NCBI GenBank assembly: GCA_016926625.1
Contig: JAFGOE010000035.1
Location: 1 to 64,000 of the forward strand
Source: Candidatus Zhuqueibacterota bacterium
GTDB lineage: Bacteria > Zhuqueibacterota > Zhuqueibacteria > Thermofontimicrobiales > Thiofontviventaceae
DNA: 64,000 nucleotides
Reading direction: 5' to 3'
Shown here piece by piece: positions 7,901 to 44,529 of this stretch (the first letter of the stretch is position 1; each line of letters begins with the position of its first letter). Under the pieces are notes generated by a model. That model saw only the letters and a program-made list of their open reading frames with translations. It did not search any database and was not told the origin of the DNA. A program made the translations under genes and the position numbers.

Positions 7901-7917
7901 CCCGTGACTAGTGGGAT

Positions 7918-8040
7918 TGTATCAAAAGTTAACTTGTAGTGACGAATTTATTCATCAAATACCACCCATTGTATAGAAGGAATAAATTGCTACTACTACT
8001 TGTGGTAAATATCGTGCATTGGGACTTTTAATACAGCCCC
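7918..8040 (+). repeat. MITE/REP-like dispersed repeat, copy A
   Basis: 123 bp that align without gaps to the reverse complement of 13933-14055, with 18 mismatches by hand count (about 85% identity). The core has terminal inverted repeats: TGTATCAAAAGT at 7918-7929 and ACTTTTAATACA at 8024-8035. An internal near-palindrome built on TGACGAATTTATTC resembles REP sequences. It carries no coding capacity. No target-site duplication is evident at either end. Confidence 0.8.
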
Positions 8041-13872: not shown

Positions 13873-14157
13873 GCTCCATCATGATCAATAGGGTGCAACC
13901 TGTCACACTGAAATAAAATTCATAACGTTCACGGGGATGTATGAAAAGTCCTAATGCAAGATATTTAGCACAATTGGTAGTAAAAACTTATTCACCCTAT
14001 ACACTATATGGTATTTGACGAATAAATTCGTCACTACAAGTTAACTTTTGATACAGTCAACGCTGAATTATTCTTTTGTGCTTTGCCTGATGAGGGCAGG
14101 TTCGGGCAAAGCGATGTTGTAGAAACACGATGTATCTATTAATACAGGAACTTGCGA
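13873..14157. other. Gap within the efflux cluster holding repeat copy B and a hairpin
   Basis: This 285-bp gap splits the adaptor gene from the ATPase genes that should function with it. It contains repeat copy B (13933-14055) and a hairpin with stem CTTTGCC (14080-14086) / GGCAAAG (14106-14112). The hairpin is not followed by a T run. No gene is visible. Confidence 0.6.
13933..14055 (-). repeat. MITE/REP-like dispersed repeat, copy B
   Basis: The inverted copy of 7918-8040: equal length, no gaps, 18 differences. Its core is bounded by TGTATGAAAAGT (13938-13949) and ACTTTTGATACA (14044-14055), mutually inverted with one mismatch. The internal palindrome TGACGAATAAATTCGTCA (14018-14035) is better preserved here than in copy A. 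It sits between hlyD and the ATPase genes. Confidence 0.8.
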
Positions 14158-35495: not shown

Positions 35496-37028
35496 TTACA
35501 TCTGTTCCTTCCTGAAAAGAGCCCAGATCAACGGGATTAAATTTAATATCGATATGGTGATTGAAAAAACGTTCCCATATCGCACAAAGAAAGAACGCCG
35601 GGGATTCAACGGCACGTCCGAAACCAGATATTGAGGTTCAAAGATCGGTGTACTGCTTATCGTTCTGCCGTACGGATCGACGAACATGGAGATACCGGTG
35701 TTCGCTGCACGGGCGATAGAAATTCTATTCTCGATCGCTCTGAAAACCGAGGCTTGAGCGTGATGATAAGGCGCAGAACTTCGTTTAAACCAGGCGTCAT
35801 TGGTTATAATGATCAATAATTCAGCCTCGTCGTGTATTACGAATTTCCTGACCAGATCAGGAAAAAGGGATTCAAAACAGATCACAACGGGGGCTTTCAA
35901 ATATTTATAACGTGGTTCCTCGTCGTTTTTTTTTATTGGGATGTGAAATGTTACCATCTCATCGCCAGGTGAAAAATTACCTTCGCCCAGTTCAAACGAT
36001 TCGAGAAACCTTTTGAATTGGGGGAAAATATCAGTAAATGGCACTCGTTCACCGAATGGGACCAGATGAAGCTTTGAATAGCTTTGCATGCCGTGACGGC
36101 GGGGAATGAGGCAGAATACAGAATTAAAGGTGCGGTAATTCCCTGTTTTCAAGAATGTGACATCGTGTGCACCGGTTATCAAGGGCAGATCAAGTTCTTC
36201 ACCAAATGCTTTCAATCTTTGGTGATATTGCGGTGTATATCTGAGATAGCAAGGCATGGCTGTTTCCGGCCAGATCAGGAGCTGGATATCATGTTCGGCA
36301 GCTTGTCGCGACAGGTCGCTGTAAATCTCGAAATTTTCATCCCAATAATCTTCATCTGACTTTAAAAAAGGATCGATGTTGCCCTGAACCACGGCGATTC
36401 GAATGTTTTCATCGGTCGTGGTATCATCTGGCATCACCCACCTGCCGTACAACCAGGGAAGCACAAAGAGCAAGATCAACACGATGATTAGTATCGTGAG
36501 TCGCCGACCATCCTTGAAATACGCGAAAATCATCAACAAAACGACGTTGATGCAAACGACCCAAAACGAGACCCCAAAAATACTCGTAAACGACACATAT
36601 TGAATGAGTGACAGGTAGTACGATTGCGAATAGGCTAATGATGTCCATGGGAAACCCAGCACGCCGAGAGACCTCAGATATTCGATACCTGTCCATAAGA
36701 AAGGGATAACGAAAAAGACCTTACTCTCGCCCAGCCGCATGCGGAGAAATACATAGAAAACAGCAAATAAGACGAAGTAAAAAGGCAGGACCAAAATCGC
36801 CGCCACTGCGCCAGGAATGGTTACCCAATTGATCCAATACAGAGTGCCTATGTTAACAAACAATCCGGTTACATAGCTCCATCGGGCAGCCTCTTTCATA
36901 CTGGCGTCATGCAGCAGGAGGAAAAAAGGTACAAGTGCGATATATGCCAGAAATCCCAGTTTAAAAGGCGGAAATGAGAACGAAATCAGGACACCGGTTA
37001 ATATCGAATAAAATAATCGTCTTTCCAT
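35496..37028 (-). CDS. lnt: Apolipoprotein N-acyltransferase
   Basis: 510 residues from ATG 37028. About six to eight N-terminal membrane helices precede a nitrilase-like domain with the catalytic triad: Glu in LIWPETAMP, Lys in YSKLHLVPFGERVPF and Cys in VVICFESLFPDL. It adds the third acyl chain to lipoproteins at the inner membrane. The gene begins an envelope-related run lnt, PorV-like, hypothetical, bamD. Confidence 0.96.
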   Translation of the reverse strand: MERRLFYSILTGVLISFSFPPFKLGFLAYIALVPFFLLLHDASMKEAARWSYVTGLFVNIGTLYWINWVTIPGAVAAILVLPFYFVLFAVFYVFLRMRLGESKVFFVIPFLWTGIEYLRSLGVLGFPWTSLAYSQSYYLSLIQYVSFTSIFGVSFWVVCINVVLLMIFAYFKDGRRLTILIIVLILLFVLPWLYGRWVMPDDTTTDENIRIAVVQGNIDPFLKSDEDYWDENFEIYSDLSRQAAEHDIQLLIWPETAMPCYLRYTPQYHQRLKAFGEELDLPLITGAHDVTFLKTGNYRTFNSVFCLIPRRHGMQSYSKLHLVPFGERVPFTDIFPQFKRFLESFELGEGNFSPGDEMVTFHIPIKKNDEEPRYKYLKAPVVICFESLFPDLVRKFVIHDEAELLIIITNDAWFKRSSAPYHHAQASVFRAIENRISIARAANTGISMFVDPYGRTISSTPIFEPQYLVSDVPLNPRRSFFVRYGNVFSITISILNLIPLIWALFRKEQM

Positions 37029-37100
37029 AACATGTATCAATTAAGCCTGTCGTCGCTTCTATCAACGATCAGCTTCAACGTTCCATTTGACCAGGTAGAT

Positions 37101-37479: not shown

Positions 37480-37806
37480 TTATTCTTCCATTGATATCGA
37501 GGGCATCGGTTGTTTCAGGACTTCTTTTAAAAGTTTGCCGGCTTTAAAATGGGTTTTGCGTCGGGCCGGGACGAAAATGATGTCGCCGGTTTTCGGATTT
37601 CTGGCCTTAGGTTTTGGTTTGGTCGTTTTAACTTCGAAAACACCAAAGTCTCTAATTTCAATACGAACTTCAGGATCCGCTTCCGCCATGAACTCGCGAA
37701 GTGTGGTGAACACGCCGTCGACGATCTTTTCAGTAATATAAATCTTTTCACCAACGAGCTTTGCAGTACGTTTGGAAACATCTTTTTTAGTTATAGTTCG
37801 TTTCAT
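37480..37806 (-). CDS. HU/IHF-family DNA-binding protein
   Basis: 108 residues. The DNA-binding arm is RNPKTGDIIFVPARRKTHFKAGKLLKE and the N-terminal helices KKDVSKRTAKLVGEKIYITEKIVDGVFTTLREFM follow the HU pattern. The C-terminal extension (VLKQPMPSISMEE) is short. It bends or compacts DNA. It lies downstream of the relA/spoT homologue and is followed by the terminator. A second HU-like gene is at 52429-52776. Confidence 0.93.
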   Translation of the reverse strand: MKRTITKKDVSKRTAKLVGEKIYITEKIVDGVFTTLREFMAEADPEVRIEIRDFGVFEVKTTKPKPKARNPKTGDIIFVPARRKTHFKAGKLLKEVLKQPMPSISMEE

Positions 37807-37858: not shown

Positions 37859-40072
37859 TTATATGTAGTCAATACTACCATCCCCTTCAATTCGGTCGAC
37901 ACGAATGACGCCTTTAATACTTTTTAATTTACTGATGATACGAGCGAGATGATTCACATTAAGAACTTCTATGGCCATGATATTATTTAGCAGTGTGTCC
38001 TTTGTCTTCATATCGATGCTGACAATGTTACTGTTCATGGCTTCAATCGTATCGGTAACACTTCTAAGAAAACCGCGGTGGTTTTCGGCTATCATATTGA
38101 TTCTTGATACAAATTTTTTATCCGGATCAATGGCCCATTGCACGTCGATGTTGCGATCAGGGTTCTCGAGTAATTTGGGCACATTCTTACAATCAGTGCG
38201 ATGGATGACGACCCCTTTACCACGAACGACGAATCCTGTAATTTTATCTCCCGGCAGCGGCTGACAGCACTTGGCAAAGGTGATCAGCAAATTCTTTTCC
38301 CCCTGAACCTTGACACCAGGTTCGTTTCCCTTCGCACGTTTAATGATCCGTTTGAGCAATGATTCATCATTCGTCTCATTAAGCTTTTCTGGTGCGACGG
38401 CACGTATCACATTGTTGATCGTTAATTCACCGAGCCCGATAGCGGACAGGAAATTGCTGTAATCATCAAATTTAAAAGTCCTGGCAATCGATCGTAATTC
38501 GTCGTTTGAAATCTCAAGGTGAAAGCTTTTTAGAGCCTTATTCAGCATCTCTTCACCAAGCTTCCTGCTTTGCTCGAACTGAGATTGCTTCATCCAATGC
38601 CGAATTCTGCTCTTCGCCTTGTTTGTCTTCACAAACTTCAGCCAATCACGATTCGGTTGCTGATTGTTCGACGTGATGATTTCAACGGTGTCGCCGCTTT
38701 TCAATTCGGTATTCAATTGAACCAGCTTGCCATTGATCTTTGCACCCAGGCAGTGCAGTCCGACATCTGTATGCACATGAAATGCGAAATCGACAGGTGT
38801 GGACCCTTTAGGTAATTGCCAAAGATCTCGATCCGGGGAGAAGATAAAGATATCATCCCTGAACAGATCATCGATGTTCAGGCTCTGCATAAACTTATCA
38901 GGATCAAGAGCGTCCTCTAAAACTTTTTGTCGTATGAAACTTAATTTTTCATCGACTTCATCCATTTTGGATTTTCGCTCTTTATAAAGCCAATGGGCAG
39001 CGATACCGGTCTCGGCCTTCTCGTGCATTTTATCCGTCCGGATTTGAACCTCCACAATTCGGCGCTCCAGAGGGCTTTGTTGAGGTTCGAAAAGCGCTTT
39101 AATATGAATAGATTGATAACCATTCTCCCGCGGATTAGTAATATAATCCGCGTACAATGATTGTATCGGCTTATAGAGCTCCTGGACAACGCTCAGCGCC
39201 GTATAACAATCGCGATAACGGGTATCCGGACTATCACCTTCCTTCACGATAATCCGAATCGCCAGAATATCGCTTATCTTATCTAACGAATAACCACGAT
39301 TCACCATCTTCTTGTGTATCGAATAAATGCTCTTCGGTCGTCCGCTAATTTTTGCTTCGACATTCAGCGAGCGTAACCGCTCTGAGAGCTCATTGATGAT
39401 CAGATTGATGTATCGTTCCTGTACGTCGCGACTCTCAGTGAGCCGTTGCTGTATGTATTGATATGTATCGTGATTCAGAAATTTGAACGATAGATCTTCC
39501 AACTCCTGCTTGATTCGATTCACACCAAGACGATGCGCCAGTGGCGCGTAAATCGACATCGTTTCCTGGGCGATATTCTGGACGAATGTCTTATTTCGCT
39601 CGTCGAATGTTACATCGATGGCCCGTAGTCGTTCGAGTTGATCAGCAAATTTTATGATGATGACCCTGAGATCCTTCGCTATCGAGAGGATCAACTTTCT
39701 GAGAATATCTTCCTGTTTGAGATCATTGCTCTTCAATCTCAATTCACTGATTTGAGAGAAACCGCTCACCAGGTTTGCGATGCTCTCATTAAAGTTTTTA
39801 CGGATCTCATCCGTCGTGATTTCGGTATCGATAATGATCGCATGTAACAACCCGGCTATGATCGTCTCATAATCCATCTTCAGATCAACTAAAATCTGAG
39901 CAACATTCAAACAATGCTCAAAATAAGGCTTCCCGGAGAAATGTAATTTTTCTCTGTATGTATTATGACTCCATTCAACCGCTTTTTTCAATAAATCTTC
40001 ATTCAAAGAACTACTGTATCGCTTGATTTTATCTACCAGATCATGATACACATTCTCAATATTTTGATCCAT
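37859..40072 (-). CDS. relA: RelA/SpoT homologue with degenerate hydrolase domain
   Basis: 737 residues: HD hydrolase (~30-180), synthetase (~235-350), TGS (~405-465), helical region, conserved Cys region (KCCQPLPGDKITGF) and C-terminal ACT. The synthetase keeps NGYQSIH and EVQIRT. In the HD domain His53 and His77 are present, but the residue after His77 is Ala78 rather than Asp, 81 is Ile rather than Glu, and the DxLxN element reads D144-Q-L-E-R148. These are the metal and substrate ligands in the Streptococcus Rel structure, so (p)ppGpp hydrolysis is probably lost and the protein acts as a synthetase. It lies upstream of an HU gene. Confidence 0.92.
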   Translation of the reverse strand: MDQNIENVYHDLVDKIKRYSSSLNEDLLKKAVEWSHNTYREKLHFSGKPYFEHCLNVAQILVDLKMDYETIIAGLLHAIIIDTEITTDEIRKNFNESIANLVSGFSQISELRLKSNDLKQEDILRKLILSIAKDLRVIIIKFADQLERLRAIDVTFDERNKTFVQNIAQETMSIYAPLAHRLGVNRIKQELEDLSFKFLNHDTYQYIQQRLTESRDVQERYINLIINELSERLRSLNVEAKISGRPKSIYSIHKKMVNRGYSLDKISDILAIRIIVKEGDSPDTRYRDCYTALSVVQELYKPIQSLYADYITNPRENGYQSIHIKALFEPQQSPLERRIVEVQIRTDKMHEKAETGIAAHWLYKERKSKMDEVDEKLSFIRQKVLEDALDPDKFMQSLNIDDLFRDDIFIFSPDRDLWQLPKGSTPVDFAFHVHTDVGLHCLGAKINGKLVQLNTELKSGDTVEIITSNNQQPNRDWLKFVKTNKAKSRIRHWMKQSQFEQSRKLGEEMLNKALKSFHLEISNDELRSIARTFKFDDYSNFLSAIGLGELTINNVIRAVAPEKLNETNDESLLKRIIKRAKGNEPGVKVQGEKNLLITFAKCCQPLPGDKITGFVVRGKGVVIHRTDCKNVPKLLENPDRNIDVQWAIDPDKKFVSRINMIAENHRGFLRSVTDTIEAMNSNIVSIDMKTKDTLLNNIMAIEVLNVNHLARIISKLKSIKGVIRVDRIEGDGSIDYI

Positions 40073-40305
40073 CGCGCGACCACACTCATTATTGCCCCGT
40101 TATTATCATTTTATAAACTATGTATTTTTTTTATAATAATCAAGATAAAAATGCTCTATAATCAAAAAAATAATCAACTTATCAAATAAAAACGCATATT
40201 TTATGTAAATACTAGCATAAATTTTTAATTTTCAATAAATTTCAACGTATATATTTTAGCAATATGATACTATCCGCCAATCCCGTGAAACGTCAGATCA
40301 CGTGA

Positions 40306-41766
40306 TCAGAACGGAGCACTCGTTTCGGCTCCGTCGCTTTTTTCGGACTTATCATCATGGGTCAAGTGCCCACCATAGAACTCTACATCGTCATCACGAG
40401 GGACCTTTTCAATGAATGTCACATACTCTCGCAAGTAGTGAAGATCTATTTTCCCGGTAGGTCCGTTGCGTTGTTTACTGATAATCACTTCGGCATCATT
40501 TTCCTTACCCGCCTCCACCAGGCCGTACACTATAGGACGATAGATAAATATGACCACATCGGCGTCCTGTTCGATTGCTCCTGACTCTCTCAAGTCGGAC
40601 AACTGCGGTCGCTTATCGCCGGTTCTTGATTCCACGGCTCTTGACAATTGCGAGAGAGCGACGACTGGAATATCGAGTTCCTTCGCCAATGCTTTCAGCG
40701 CCTGTGAAATATCAGATATCTCCTGCTGGCGGCTCTCCGGGCGTCCTGATCCTCTGATCAACTGTAAATAATCGATAATCAGCATCTCAATATCATGTTC
40801 AAATTTCAGACGTCGTGCCTTGGCCTTGATTTCCAGTATGGATTGTGCCGCCACGTCGTCCACAAAAAGCGGTGCATCGGCGAGAGTCCCCACACACATG
40901 CTTAATTTAGGCCATTGATTTTTCGGCAACTTTCCGGTCCGCACCAGGTGTGAATCAACGCGAGCTTCGGCGCATAGCAAACGCAATGCGAGTTGATAGG
41001 ACGCCATTTCCAGGCTGGCGAAGCCGACGGGGAAATTGAAACGCACCGCAGCATTCCTCGCGATGTTAAGCGCCATCGCGGTTTTTCCCATCGAAGGTCT
41101 GCCTGCGATGATGATCAGGTCCGATTTCTGAAATCCGGATGTCAATTCATCGAGTCCTCTGAATCCGGTGGGAATACCGGTCACTCCGCCCTTCTTGTGG
41201 TGGTATGTTTCGATGCGTTCGAATGTATCATGTAAGATAGGAGATATCGGTTGAAATCCTTTTCGCAAACGATTTTCTGATAATTCGAACACCTTTCTTT
41301 CGGCATCATCCACCAGATCATAGACGTTATCGAACGCTGAATCGTAACACTGGGAAGTTATACTCGAGGTAACATTGATTAACCTTCGCAGTAACGCTTT
41401 CTCCAGTACAATCTTCGCATGAAATTCGATGTTAGCAGCTGAGGGGACCTTATCAGCCAGTTGGGCAAGGTAATAATTACCCCCCACATTCTCCAATTCG
41501 CCGATTTTAGTCAGAGCATCGGCCATGGTGATGATGTCGACGGGTTGGCGATTATCATACAGCGTTGTAGCCACTCGAAAGATTTTTTTATGAGCCGTCC
41601 TGTAAAAGCAGTTTTCATCGAGCAAGTCGGTAGCCTTGGCCACGGCTTCCACGTCAAGAAACATCGCTCCCAATACAGCCATCTCAGCATCGATGTCCTG
41701 AGGAGGCAATCGGTTACCCGGAGTATGTTCGGTAGCCTTTTCGTTTCGCATCGTCTTATTGTTCAT
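40306..41766 (-). CDS. dnaB: Replicative DNA helicase DnaB
   Basis: 486 residues. The N-terminal dimerisation domain begins at PPQDIDAEMAVLGAMFLD. The RecA-like core has Walker A AGRPSMGKTAMALN, Walker B MLIIDYLQLI and RESGAIEQDADVV. It unwinds DNA at the replication fork. It overlaps the end of the udg-like gene by 11 bp, closing the conserved yicC-to-dnaB run. A palindrome GATCACGTGATC (40296-40307) spans its stop codon. Confidence 0.97.
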   Translation of the reverse strand: MNNKTMRNEKATEHTPGNRLPPQDIDAEMAVLGAMFLDVEAVAKATDLLDENCFYRTAHKKIFRVATTLYDNRQPVDIITMADALTKIGELENVGGNYYLAQLADKVPSAANIEFHAKIVLEKALLRRLINVTSSITSQCYDSAFDNVYDLVDDAERKVFELSENRLRKGFQPISPILHDTFERIETYHHKKGGVTGIPTGFRGLDELTSGFQKSDLIIIAGRPSMGKTAMALNIARNAAVRFNFPVGFASLEMASYQLALRLLCAEARVDSHLVRTGKLPKNQWPKLSMCVGTLADAPLFVDDVAAQSILEIKAKARRLKFEHDIEMLIIDYLQLIRGSGRPESRQQEISDISQALKALAKELDIPVVALSQLSRAVESRTGDKRPQLSDLRESGAIEQDADVVIFIYRPIVYGLVEAGKENDAEVIISKQRNGPTGKIDLHYLREYVTFIEKVPRDDDVEFYGGHLTHDDKSEKSDGAETSAPF

Positions 41767-43652: not shown

Positions 43653-43949
43653 CTATTCCTGTTCATCTTTATTAAGATATTCGAAATTTAGTTTCCCGGC
43701 CAATAACTCCTCCAATGCAATTCGTGTCGGTTTCGGAAGTTTTAAATAGGAAATTTCTTCACCTCGTTCGATTTCATCCTGATCTTCTTCATACCCTTCG
43801 TTATCGCTATCGATACCCAGTTCTGTCTCGATAATCATTTTCTGTTCTTCATTGATCTGTCGTGCTCTCTTTGCGATCACGACGATCGCTTCATAGATAT
43901 TTCCTACATTTTTAACCAAATCTTCCAGATTGGTTGTTGTGACTCCCAT
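43653..43949 (-). CDS. rpoZ: DNA-directed RNA polymerase omega subunit
   Basis: 98 residues from ATG 43949 with GGAGGC upstream. NIYEAIVVIAKRARQIN and the C-terminal KPTRIALEELLAGKLNFEYL match omega. Between them lies an acidic insertion of ~25 residues (DSDNEGYEEDQDEIERGEE) longer than in many omegas. Position between gmk and coaBC is the standard bacterial context. Omega aids folding of beta-prime and carries ppGpp site 1 in proteobacteria. Confidence 0.88.
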   Translation of the reverse strand: MGVTTTNLEDLVKNVGNIYEAIVVIAKRARQINEEQKMIIETELGIDSDNEGYEEDQDEIERGEEISYLKLPKPTRIALEELLAGKLNFEYLNKDEQE

Positions 43950-43965
43950 TCTATTTTGCCTCCAA

Positions 43966-44529
43966 TTATAATTGATGAAGATTAATGACTCTAATGACCT
44001 CGGCGATGGTAACCTCCAGGTCATTGTTGACGATCACATGATCAAATTGTTTACCTCTTTCCATCTCGAGCGGAACTCGCCGCAGCCGTTTTTCGATTTC
44101 ACCATGCGAATCGGTCTTACGATTTCGCAGGCGTCTTATCAGCTCATCGACAGACGGTGGAGCAATAAAAATTGTCACGCTGTTTTCCGCATACTCCTGT
44201 CTGATACGCAGACCACCCTGTACATCAATATCCAGCAAAACGACTTTATCCTCGTTCAACCACGATTCGATCTGATCCCTGGGTGTTCCGTAATAGTAAT
44301 CATGTACCCGTTCCCATTCGATGAAGTCGTTACGATCGATTTTTTCACGAAACTGATGCTCGCTAAGGAAAAAATAATCGATCCCATCGATTTCACCAGG
44401 ACGCGGCTGGCGGGTAGTGGCCGAGATGGAATACTTAAAATCAAATTCGTTTGTTTTTAACAGCCTTTGAATGACCGTTGTTTTGCCCCCTCCGGACGGG
44501 GAGGATAAAATAACTAATAATCCATTCAT
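43966..44529 (-). CDS. gmk: Guanylate kinase
   Basis: 187 residues. Walker A SSPSGGGKTTVIQRLL, the GMP-binding TTRQPRPGEIDGIDYFFL and the lid RLRNRKTDSHGEIEKRL are present. It converts GMP to GDP. It lies between the remA-like gene and rpoZ on the same strand. Confidence 0.97.
   Translation of the reverse strand: MNGLLVILSSPSGGGKTTVIQRLLKTNEFDFKYSISATTRQPRPGEIDGIDYFFLSEHQFREKIDRNDFIEWERVHDYYYGTPRDQIESWLNEDKVVLLDIDVQGGLRIRQEYAENSVTIFIAPPSVDELIRRLRNRKTDSHGEIEKRLRRVPLEMERGKQFDHVIVNNDLEVTIAEVIRVINLHQL

Follow-up and report, generated by a model that had tools for sequence, protein, structure and literature searches.

A long RSH with a degenerate hydrolase site in candidate division KSB1, apparently one half of an independent RelA/SpoT-type split

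Overview

The gene described here encodes a long RelA/SpoT homologue (RSH) which has lost the residues of the (p)ppGpp hydrolase site and kept those of the synthetase. It is located in a 64,000-nt stretch of DNA (the window) from a member of candidate division KSB1. In the other two genomes of the same family, G001 and G002, its ortholog is preceded by a second long RSH with the reverse properties, and the pair looks like an apparently independent and complete split of the RelA/SpoT type. The window gene would be the synthetase-only member of a long-RSH pair derived from the single bifunctional Rel of a dnaB-rel-HU/IHF locus; the most likely route is a tandem duplication which took place in the ancestor of a single KSB1 family. 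The downstream copy would have lost its hydrolase site and retained it as a folded pseudo-hydrolase domain; the upstream copy would have retained hydrolysis and lost synthesis. (p)ppGpp would presumably be made by the downstream copy when starved ribosomes engage its TGS, RIS and ACT domains. Taken jointly, this origin and this division of activities, with a pseudo-hydrolase and presumed ribosome-triggered synthesis, seem to us highly probable. In the window's lineage the hydrolase copy would later have been removed from the locus, and breakdown of (p)ppGpp may now rest either on a divergent HD protein encoded on contig C113 or on a gene outside the 85%-complete assembly. Coordinates are given in Table 1.

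The labour division between RelA and SpoT has been described from proteobacteria, and its complete form from the Moraxellaceae (PMC3153485, PMC9974481). A literature search found no paper on the stringent response in KSB1, and no title among the matches listed dealt with a RelA/SpoT-type split in this division. The tandem, reciprocal arrangement in KSB1 suggests that a bifunctional Rel can be divided again, by way of other substitutions and insertions. It would provide a second case from which to learn which features a pseudo-hydrolase needs in order to control a synthetase.

Table 1. Position of the RSH gene, its parts, its neighbours and the candidate hydrolase (window positions unless a contig is given)
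Feature	Position	Strand	Basis or remark
dnaB, upstream anchor	40306..41766	(-)	gene order; neighbour naming
gap between dnaB and RSH, 233 bp	40073..40305	(-)	site of the hydrolase copy in both relatives
promoter-like element, 32 nt, CTTGATTATT-N4-AAAAAATA[C/T]ATAGTTTAT	40113..40144	(-)	one copy per family genome
long RSH, synthetase-only copy (predicted)	37859..40072	(-)	737 aa; HD, SYNTH, TGS, AH/RIS, ACT
pseudo-hydrolase domain, residues 30-185	39518..39985	(-)	alignment to RelSeq; AlphaFold2 model
4-aa insertion, residues 164-167	39572..39583	(-)	common to the three synthetase copies
synthetase domain, residues 200-370	38963..39475	(-)	residue check against relatives
6-7-aa insertion, residues 278-284, synthetase domain	39221..39241	(-)	three synthetase copies only
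RXKD site, LYAD in the window RSH	39146..39157	(-)	LYTD, LYSD in orthologs
HU/IHF-family protein, downstream anchor	37480..37806	(-)	IHF models match below their cut-offs
lnt, downstream anchor	35496..37040	(-)	gene order; neighbour naming
divergent RSH-type HD protein, 385 aa	L090 1881-3038 = G000:C113:37880-39037		candidate alarmone hydrolase

Active sites of the window RSH

The open reading frame starts with ATG and its product matched the Pfam models HD_4, RelA_SpoT, TGS, RelA_AH_RIS and ACT_4, all above their cut-offs. With 628 bits against TIGR00691 (spoT_relA; cut-off 499) it falls into the long RSH family. In the alignment with the Streptococcus Rel (RelSeq, 1vj7) not a single gap occurred between residue 11 and the end of the hydrolase active site, and the two proteins therefore share their numbering in this region, as the preliminary description, made from the DNA letters, had remarked. 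Every residue named there was correct: H53, H77, D82 and D144 are kept, and the replacements are R44H, D78A, E81I, R145Q and N148R. Beyond these, K107Q, H147E and T151A were found. Because R44, D78, E81, K107, R145, H147, N148 and T151 are invariant in 55 of the 55 HD-bearing long RSHs compared from relatives outside the family, the changes are not due to chance. D78A, K107Q and T151A are the same in the three synthetase copies of the family, each of which also has substitutions at positions 44, 81 and 148, here with residues that vary. R145Q occurs in the window RSH only; H147 has been lost from the window RSH and the G002 copy, whereas the G001 copy retains it. From the set that marks a bifunctional Rel[HS] (intact R44, H53, H77, D78, E81, D82, D144 and N148), the residues R44, D78, E81 and N148 are missing.

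What such losses would mean can be judged from RelSeq, in which H53, H77 and D144 are the Mn2+ ligands, D78 nears Mn2+ upon substrate binding, R44 and N148 touch the alarmone, and R44Q or D78A, each alone, abolishes the hydrolase (PMC13299517). Likewise H77A/D78A makes the hydrolase of the Bacillus subtilis Rel inactive (PMC7098656). The window RSH carries both R44H and D78A. Since residues which contact metal or substrate in RelSeq, including R44, D78 and N148, have been replaced, the sequence makes hydrolysis of (p)ppGpp by the window RSH very unlikely, and the loss of this activity predicted earlier is well supported; the same loss is seen in the orthologs from a further two genera of this family. 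With H53, H77, D144 and D82 still in place, the site may bind metal weakly. Together with an HD domain mostly modelled with good confidence, these residues might suggest a rebuilt site that still hydrolyses (p)ppGpp; yet none of the three orthologs has kept R44, D78, E81, K107, N148 or T151, and the relatives have a separate copy with an intact hydrolase site, which leaves this alternative exceedingly improbable.

The AlphaFold2 model of residues 1-390, based on a three-row alignment, had a mean pLDDT of 74.4 and was poor past residue 300. Within the pseudo-hydrolase domain pLDDT was 81-95 in most 10-residue blocks and 63-74 in three blocks, and the best structural matches of the model were Rel chains. 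The synthetase motifs had been called intact, and all synthetase residues checked are indeed kept (G244, R245, K247, S251, K255, D268, R273, N317, Y319, Q320, S321, H323, E341, Q343, R345 and H350).

The tandem partner and its locus

G001 and G002, which with the window's own genome make up the family comparison of three genomes, each possess two tandem long RSHs between dnaB and the HU/IHF gene. The gene order is dnaB - hydrolase copy - synthetase copy - HU/IHF - lnt in both, and dnaB, 233 bp, synthetase copy, HU/IHF, lnt in the window. The downstream copies are orthologs of the window gene with 59% identity in G001 and with 53% and 62% in G002, where the gene is split across two contigs that share 141 identical nt at their ends. 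In these copies the hydrolase site is damaged and the synthetase intact; in the upstream copies it is the reverse. The latter retain R44, H53, H77, D78, E81, D82, K107, D144, R145, N148 and T151, and all hydrolase residues checked are kept except for Y50F and the variable position 45. Their synthetase sites have changed (RelSeq numbering, G001/G002) at G240 (D/C), R241 (S/E), S247 (N/K) and R269 (K/K), with E323D in addition in G002, and R327K and H342N in G001. Relatives outside the family retain R241 in 55 of 55 rows with a letter at the site, S247 in 55/56, R269 in 54/54 and E323 in 53/53.

The alignment used for these comparisons contained 56 rows from 55 of the 57 non-family relatives, one row being a C-terminal piece without HD domain. 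G048 and G054 (pieces without HD domain) were excluded, as were the C-terminal pieces L036, L071 and L073, the divergent L037 and six small-hydrolase loci. An RSH match was present in all 60 genomes searched, the window's own included, and at E <= 1e-30 in 80 of 82 genomes of the phylum. Two complete long RSHs were found in only two of these 82, namely G001 and G002; other genomes with more than one RSH match contained pieces of one gene, as judged by the query ranges. G002 has a third RSH-like gene, a divergent ORF of 702 aa (L037 2777-4882, G002:C290) with RelA_SpoT and TGS domains, in which Pfam detected no hydrolase domain at E 0.001.

The order dnaB-RSH-HU/IHF was found in 12 of 13 single-RSH relatives compared, the thirteenth beginning at a contig edge, and in four single-RSH relatives lnt was next within the stretch compared. 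Between dnaB and the window RSH, tblastn found no coding remnant of a hydrolase gene. The gap resembles the hydrolase-synthetase junction of the relatives over 41 nt (93% identity to G001) and 40 nt (88% to G002). It includes a 32-nt element of which, at up to three mismatches, every one of the three family genomes has a single copy and the 57 other relatives have none; in G001 and G002 it is inside the junction, and its distance to the ATG of the synthetase copy is 40 nt in the window and 41 and 42 nt in the other two. By eye it is promoter-like (TTGATT, 17 nt, TAGTTT), and the synthetase copy is probably transcribed from it. The element was also considered as a general promoter class and rejected as such: looser patterns exist elsewhere in the window, and the full element is found once per family genome. 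Duplication, followed by division of labour and then by local deletion of the hydrolase copy, would be the simplest history of the locus.

Origin of the pair

Two phylogenetic trees were calculated, the first with 59 rows including Escherichia coli RelA and SpoT, the second with 30 hand-chosen rows and without these two proteins. In the tree with RelA and SpoT long branches met, which was flagged by the tree tool, and the tree was therefore rebuilt without them. In the second tree the two hydrolase copies grouped together (100/100) within a clade to which seven single Rels of their order also belong (96/98). The synthetase copies united in a clade of their own (100/100), whose long stem lies outside the other KSB1 Rels, and the free tree did not join them to the hydrolase copies. 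For this reason an alternative has to be considered in which the synthetase-only copy came from another lineage and settled next to the resident Rel, whose synthetase was then lost. The long stem of the synthetase copies outside the other KSB1 Rels, seen in the free trees, speaks for such an acquisition. However, forcing all five family rows together cost 6.5 log units and was not rejected (p-AU 0.191), the two genes are in tandem, and the joining of long branches had been flagged by the tree tool. A pattern-based scan of genome contigs for closer relatives outside the phylum returned only G001 and G002. Acquisition from outside is, on balance, unlikely. Duplication within the lineage, the reading we prefer, is allowed by the trees and not proved by them.

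Decay of the window synthetase is argued against by its branch length, which matches that of the G001 copy (0.62 and 0.63), and by the residues checked, which remain. There are nevertheless sequence signs of some looser constraint on its synthetase domain. Of 51 conserved synthetase columns (conserved columns and domain averages were taken from 52 full-length rows), 13 are changed in the window RSH, 8 in G001, 9 in the partial G002 copy and 5 in E. coli RelA. Private changes numbered 19, 6 and 18 for window, G001 and G002 in the N-terminal comparison (133 positions), and 10, 5 and 10 in the C-terminal comparison (80 positions). They were even in the rest of the C-terminal half (342 positions), with 45, 46 and 35.

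Comparison with other RSH systems

A survey of more than 1000 genomes recorded the RelA/SpoT split in beta- and gamma-proteobacteria and its complete version in Moraxellaceae (PMC3153485), and the SpoT of Acinetobacter baumannii has been established experimentally as a hydrolase-only enzyme (PMC9974481). The Moraxellaceae pair, RelA[hS] and SpoT[Hs], is the closest parallel: it too is a long-RSH pair from a duplicated Rel, with a dead hydrolase in one member and a dead synthetase in the other, the dead domains being kept (PMC9974481, PMC3153485). The KSB1 pair differs in belonging to another phylum and in lying in tandem in one locus. Moreover its hydrolase copies branch with KSB1 Rels.

Like E. 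coli RelA, the window RSH has the full long-RSH architecture with a pseudo-hydrolase and an intact synthetase, and it shares with RelA[hS] the combination of a dead hydrolase site and intact synthetase residues. The two hydrolase sites have nevertheless degenerated differently. At positions 53, 77, 78, 82 and 144 E. coli RelA has R, F, P, A and E, whereas the window RSH has H, H, A, D and D; both have H at position 44. The pseudo-hydrolase of RelA regulates synthesis via an extended H-loop (PMC8012599). This extension between alpha6 and alpha7 is absent from the window RSH, which is ungapped against RelSeq, while E. coli RelA has extra residues there relative to it. Also absent is EXDD, which we take to be the name of the RelA motif at the RXKD site: the window RSH reads LYAD, and in our alignment E. 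coli RelA has E and D in these columns. Conversely, the KSB1 synthetase copies carry LY[ATS]D and the insertions 164-167 and 278-284, and neither insertion was seen in the 52 full-length non-family rows, in either hydrolase copy or in E. coli RelA and SpoT. The NCBIfam model PRK10872 (GTP diphosphokinase) gave 452 bits, below its cut-off of 728. As to descent from the proteobacterial Rel duplication, long branches meet in the tree that includes E. coli RelA and SpoT, the hydrolase copies fall into the Rel clade of their KSB1 order, and within the phylum only one family has the pair. Because the RelA-specific features tested fail despite the RelA-like anatomy, the window protein is not classed as RelA and is apparently a long RSH with an independent RelA-like specialisation.

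In two single KSB1 Rels of the same order (L006 and L009) the RXKD site reads RFDD and SFND, and the hydrolase residues are kept. The motif therefore does not track the loss of hydrolysis here.

The bifunctional Rel[HS] of KSB1 has the same locus, the same domains and 41-50% identity to the window RSH; the difference lies in its hydrolase residues, which are intact in 55/55. RshB of Bacteroidetes likewise arose as an additional long RSH when a Rel was duplicated within one lineage, and its HD domain diverges fast (PMC3153485). It is labelled [HS], in contrast to the window RSH, and the available part of that survey makes no mention of a reciprocal synthetase loss in its partner (PMC3153485).

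Degradation of (p)ppGpp in the window's organism

According to the portion of the same survey available, neither RelA nor a small synthetase was observed on its own in any bacterium (PMC3153485). The missing partner makes this rule, no synthetase without hydrolase, directly testable in the window's organism. It had been proposed that the genome needs a second hydrolase and should be searched for one. The first part has gained from the adjacent hydrolase copy of the relatives and from an HD candidate in the window's own genome, whose action on (p)ppGpp is putative. The search turned up neither a hydrolase paralog nor a canonical small alarmone hydrolase. The assembly (3.61 Mb, 134 contigs, 85.31% complete) contains one RelA_SpoT domain and one HD_4 domain above cut-off, and its only match to the hydrolase copy at E <= 10 was the window gene itself. 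No canonical small alarmone hydrolase was found with HD_4 or with a profile built on KSB1 small alarmone hydrolases, for which seven of the nine HD-only hits served (L047 and G001:C218, the latter being the ortholog of the C113 protein, were excluded). This profile gave two weak matches (E 1.8 and 4.7) to one ORF on contig C113, and this ORF encodes the divergent candidate. A sub-threshold HD_4 hit on contig C92 (E 0.29) was discarded; it overlaps the end of an ORF named by eye as acyl-CoA-synthetase-like.

The C113 protein is, by its sequence, a divergent RSH-type HD protein with the full catalytic set. Its family occurs in 11 of 60 genomes, the window's own included, and across the phylum in 12 of 82; the G001 ortholog is 55% identical, and G002 is not among the genomes with a match. 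In all 11 aligned members (of 12 found) the equivalents of R44, G47, H53, H77, D78, E81, D82, D144, R145 and N148 are invariant, at positions R64, G67, H73, H99, D100, E103, D104, D176, R177 and N180, the equivalence being drawn from RelSeq and PDB-profile alignments. The family profile had 15 PDB matches at E up to 1, in the hydrolase-domain region, among them M. tuberculosis Rel (1.6e-7), RelSeq (3.8e-6) and human MESH1 (1.3e-4). All 15 are chains of RSH or small-hydrolase type, by name or by their appearance in other RSH or small-hydrolase matches. Against the small-hydrolase profile hhalign gave a probability of 94.9 and an E of 4.5e-8. Standard models perform poorly on the family. NCBIfam spoT_relA matched all 11 members weakly (best 2.3e-9), the window genome's protein with 21 bits against a cut-off of 499; Pfam gave no match for the latter, and HD_4 reached 18.7 and 11.9 bits (cut-off 27.2) in two other members. 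Small alarmone hydrolases and MESH1 share all ten HD catalytic residues with the C113 protein. They differ from it in that it has about 385 aa, a conserved C-terminal region of about 200 residues after the HD domain, and no Pfam match. Its gene is located between macrodomain-like and UbiA-like genes (named by eye). The family is not tied to the orphan state, since its members also accompany an ordinary single Rel in some genomes and the tandem hydrolase in G001.

The C113 family offers a concrete candidate for the enzyme that would uphold the rule mentioned above. That (p)ppGpp breakdown now rests on the C113 protein we consider plausible, with a chance slightly short of even. More tentative, though still possible, is the wider proposal that the HD proteins of 385 aa form a class of alarmone hydrolases not yet described and missed by standard profiles, and that in the window's lineage one of them replaced the deleted hydrolase half of the tandem and opposes, from an unlinked position, the synthetase-only long RSH. 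The substrate may also be another nucleotide. A different solution would be an ordinary two-enzyme split system in which the tandem hydrolase copy has moved elsewhere, to a part of the genome missing from the assembly. The incompleteness of the assembly, the conservation of the pair in both relatives and the absence of reported synthetase-only bacteria (PMC3153485, as far as available) speak in favour of it. On the other hand, no fragment of the copy was found at E up to 10, and both a move and an assembly gap would be needed although another candidate hydrolase exists in the C113 protein. Furthermore, a long RSH, sometimes in pieces, is still seen in 32 of 33 phylum genomes outside the line of 90% completeness and 5% contamination, so that a genome of this lower quality which wholly misses one is uncommon. 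Relocation is thus somewhat unlikely. Finally, the organism might have no working RSH-type hydrolase at all, an unopposed synthetase being tolerated or an unrelated enzyme being used. The failure to find a paralog or a canonical small alarmone hydrolase in the assembly would fit, as would a C113 protein, a candidate by sequence, that acts on another nucleotide; but this protein has the full HD catalytic set and matches RSH and MESH1 chains, and 15% of the genome is unseen, which makes such a state decidedly improbable.

Each of the two relatives has a canonical small alarmone hydrolase (L081 2115-2660, G001:C263; L080 591-1310, G002:C719). The two proteins are 26% identical and lie in different neighbourhoods.

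Other features of the window

Upstream of the RSH gene and in the same direction lies gmk, followed by a small ORF (43653-44529 for the two together). The small ORF had no NCBIfam match; we take its product to be similar to the omega subunit of RNA polymerase. In E. coli, spoT likewise follows gmk-rpoZ. An inverted pair of 126-nt sequences with 85% identity was found at 7915-8040 and 13933-14058. The pair is part of a dispersed repeat, for which the window's own genome gave 39 matches; Rfam had no match within the window. Both strands of one copy fold better than shuffled sequences (z about -2.8), and the repeat looks like a MITE or REP-like element.
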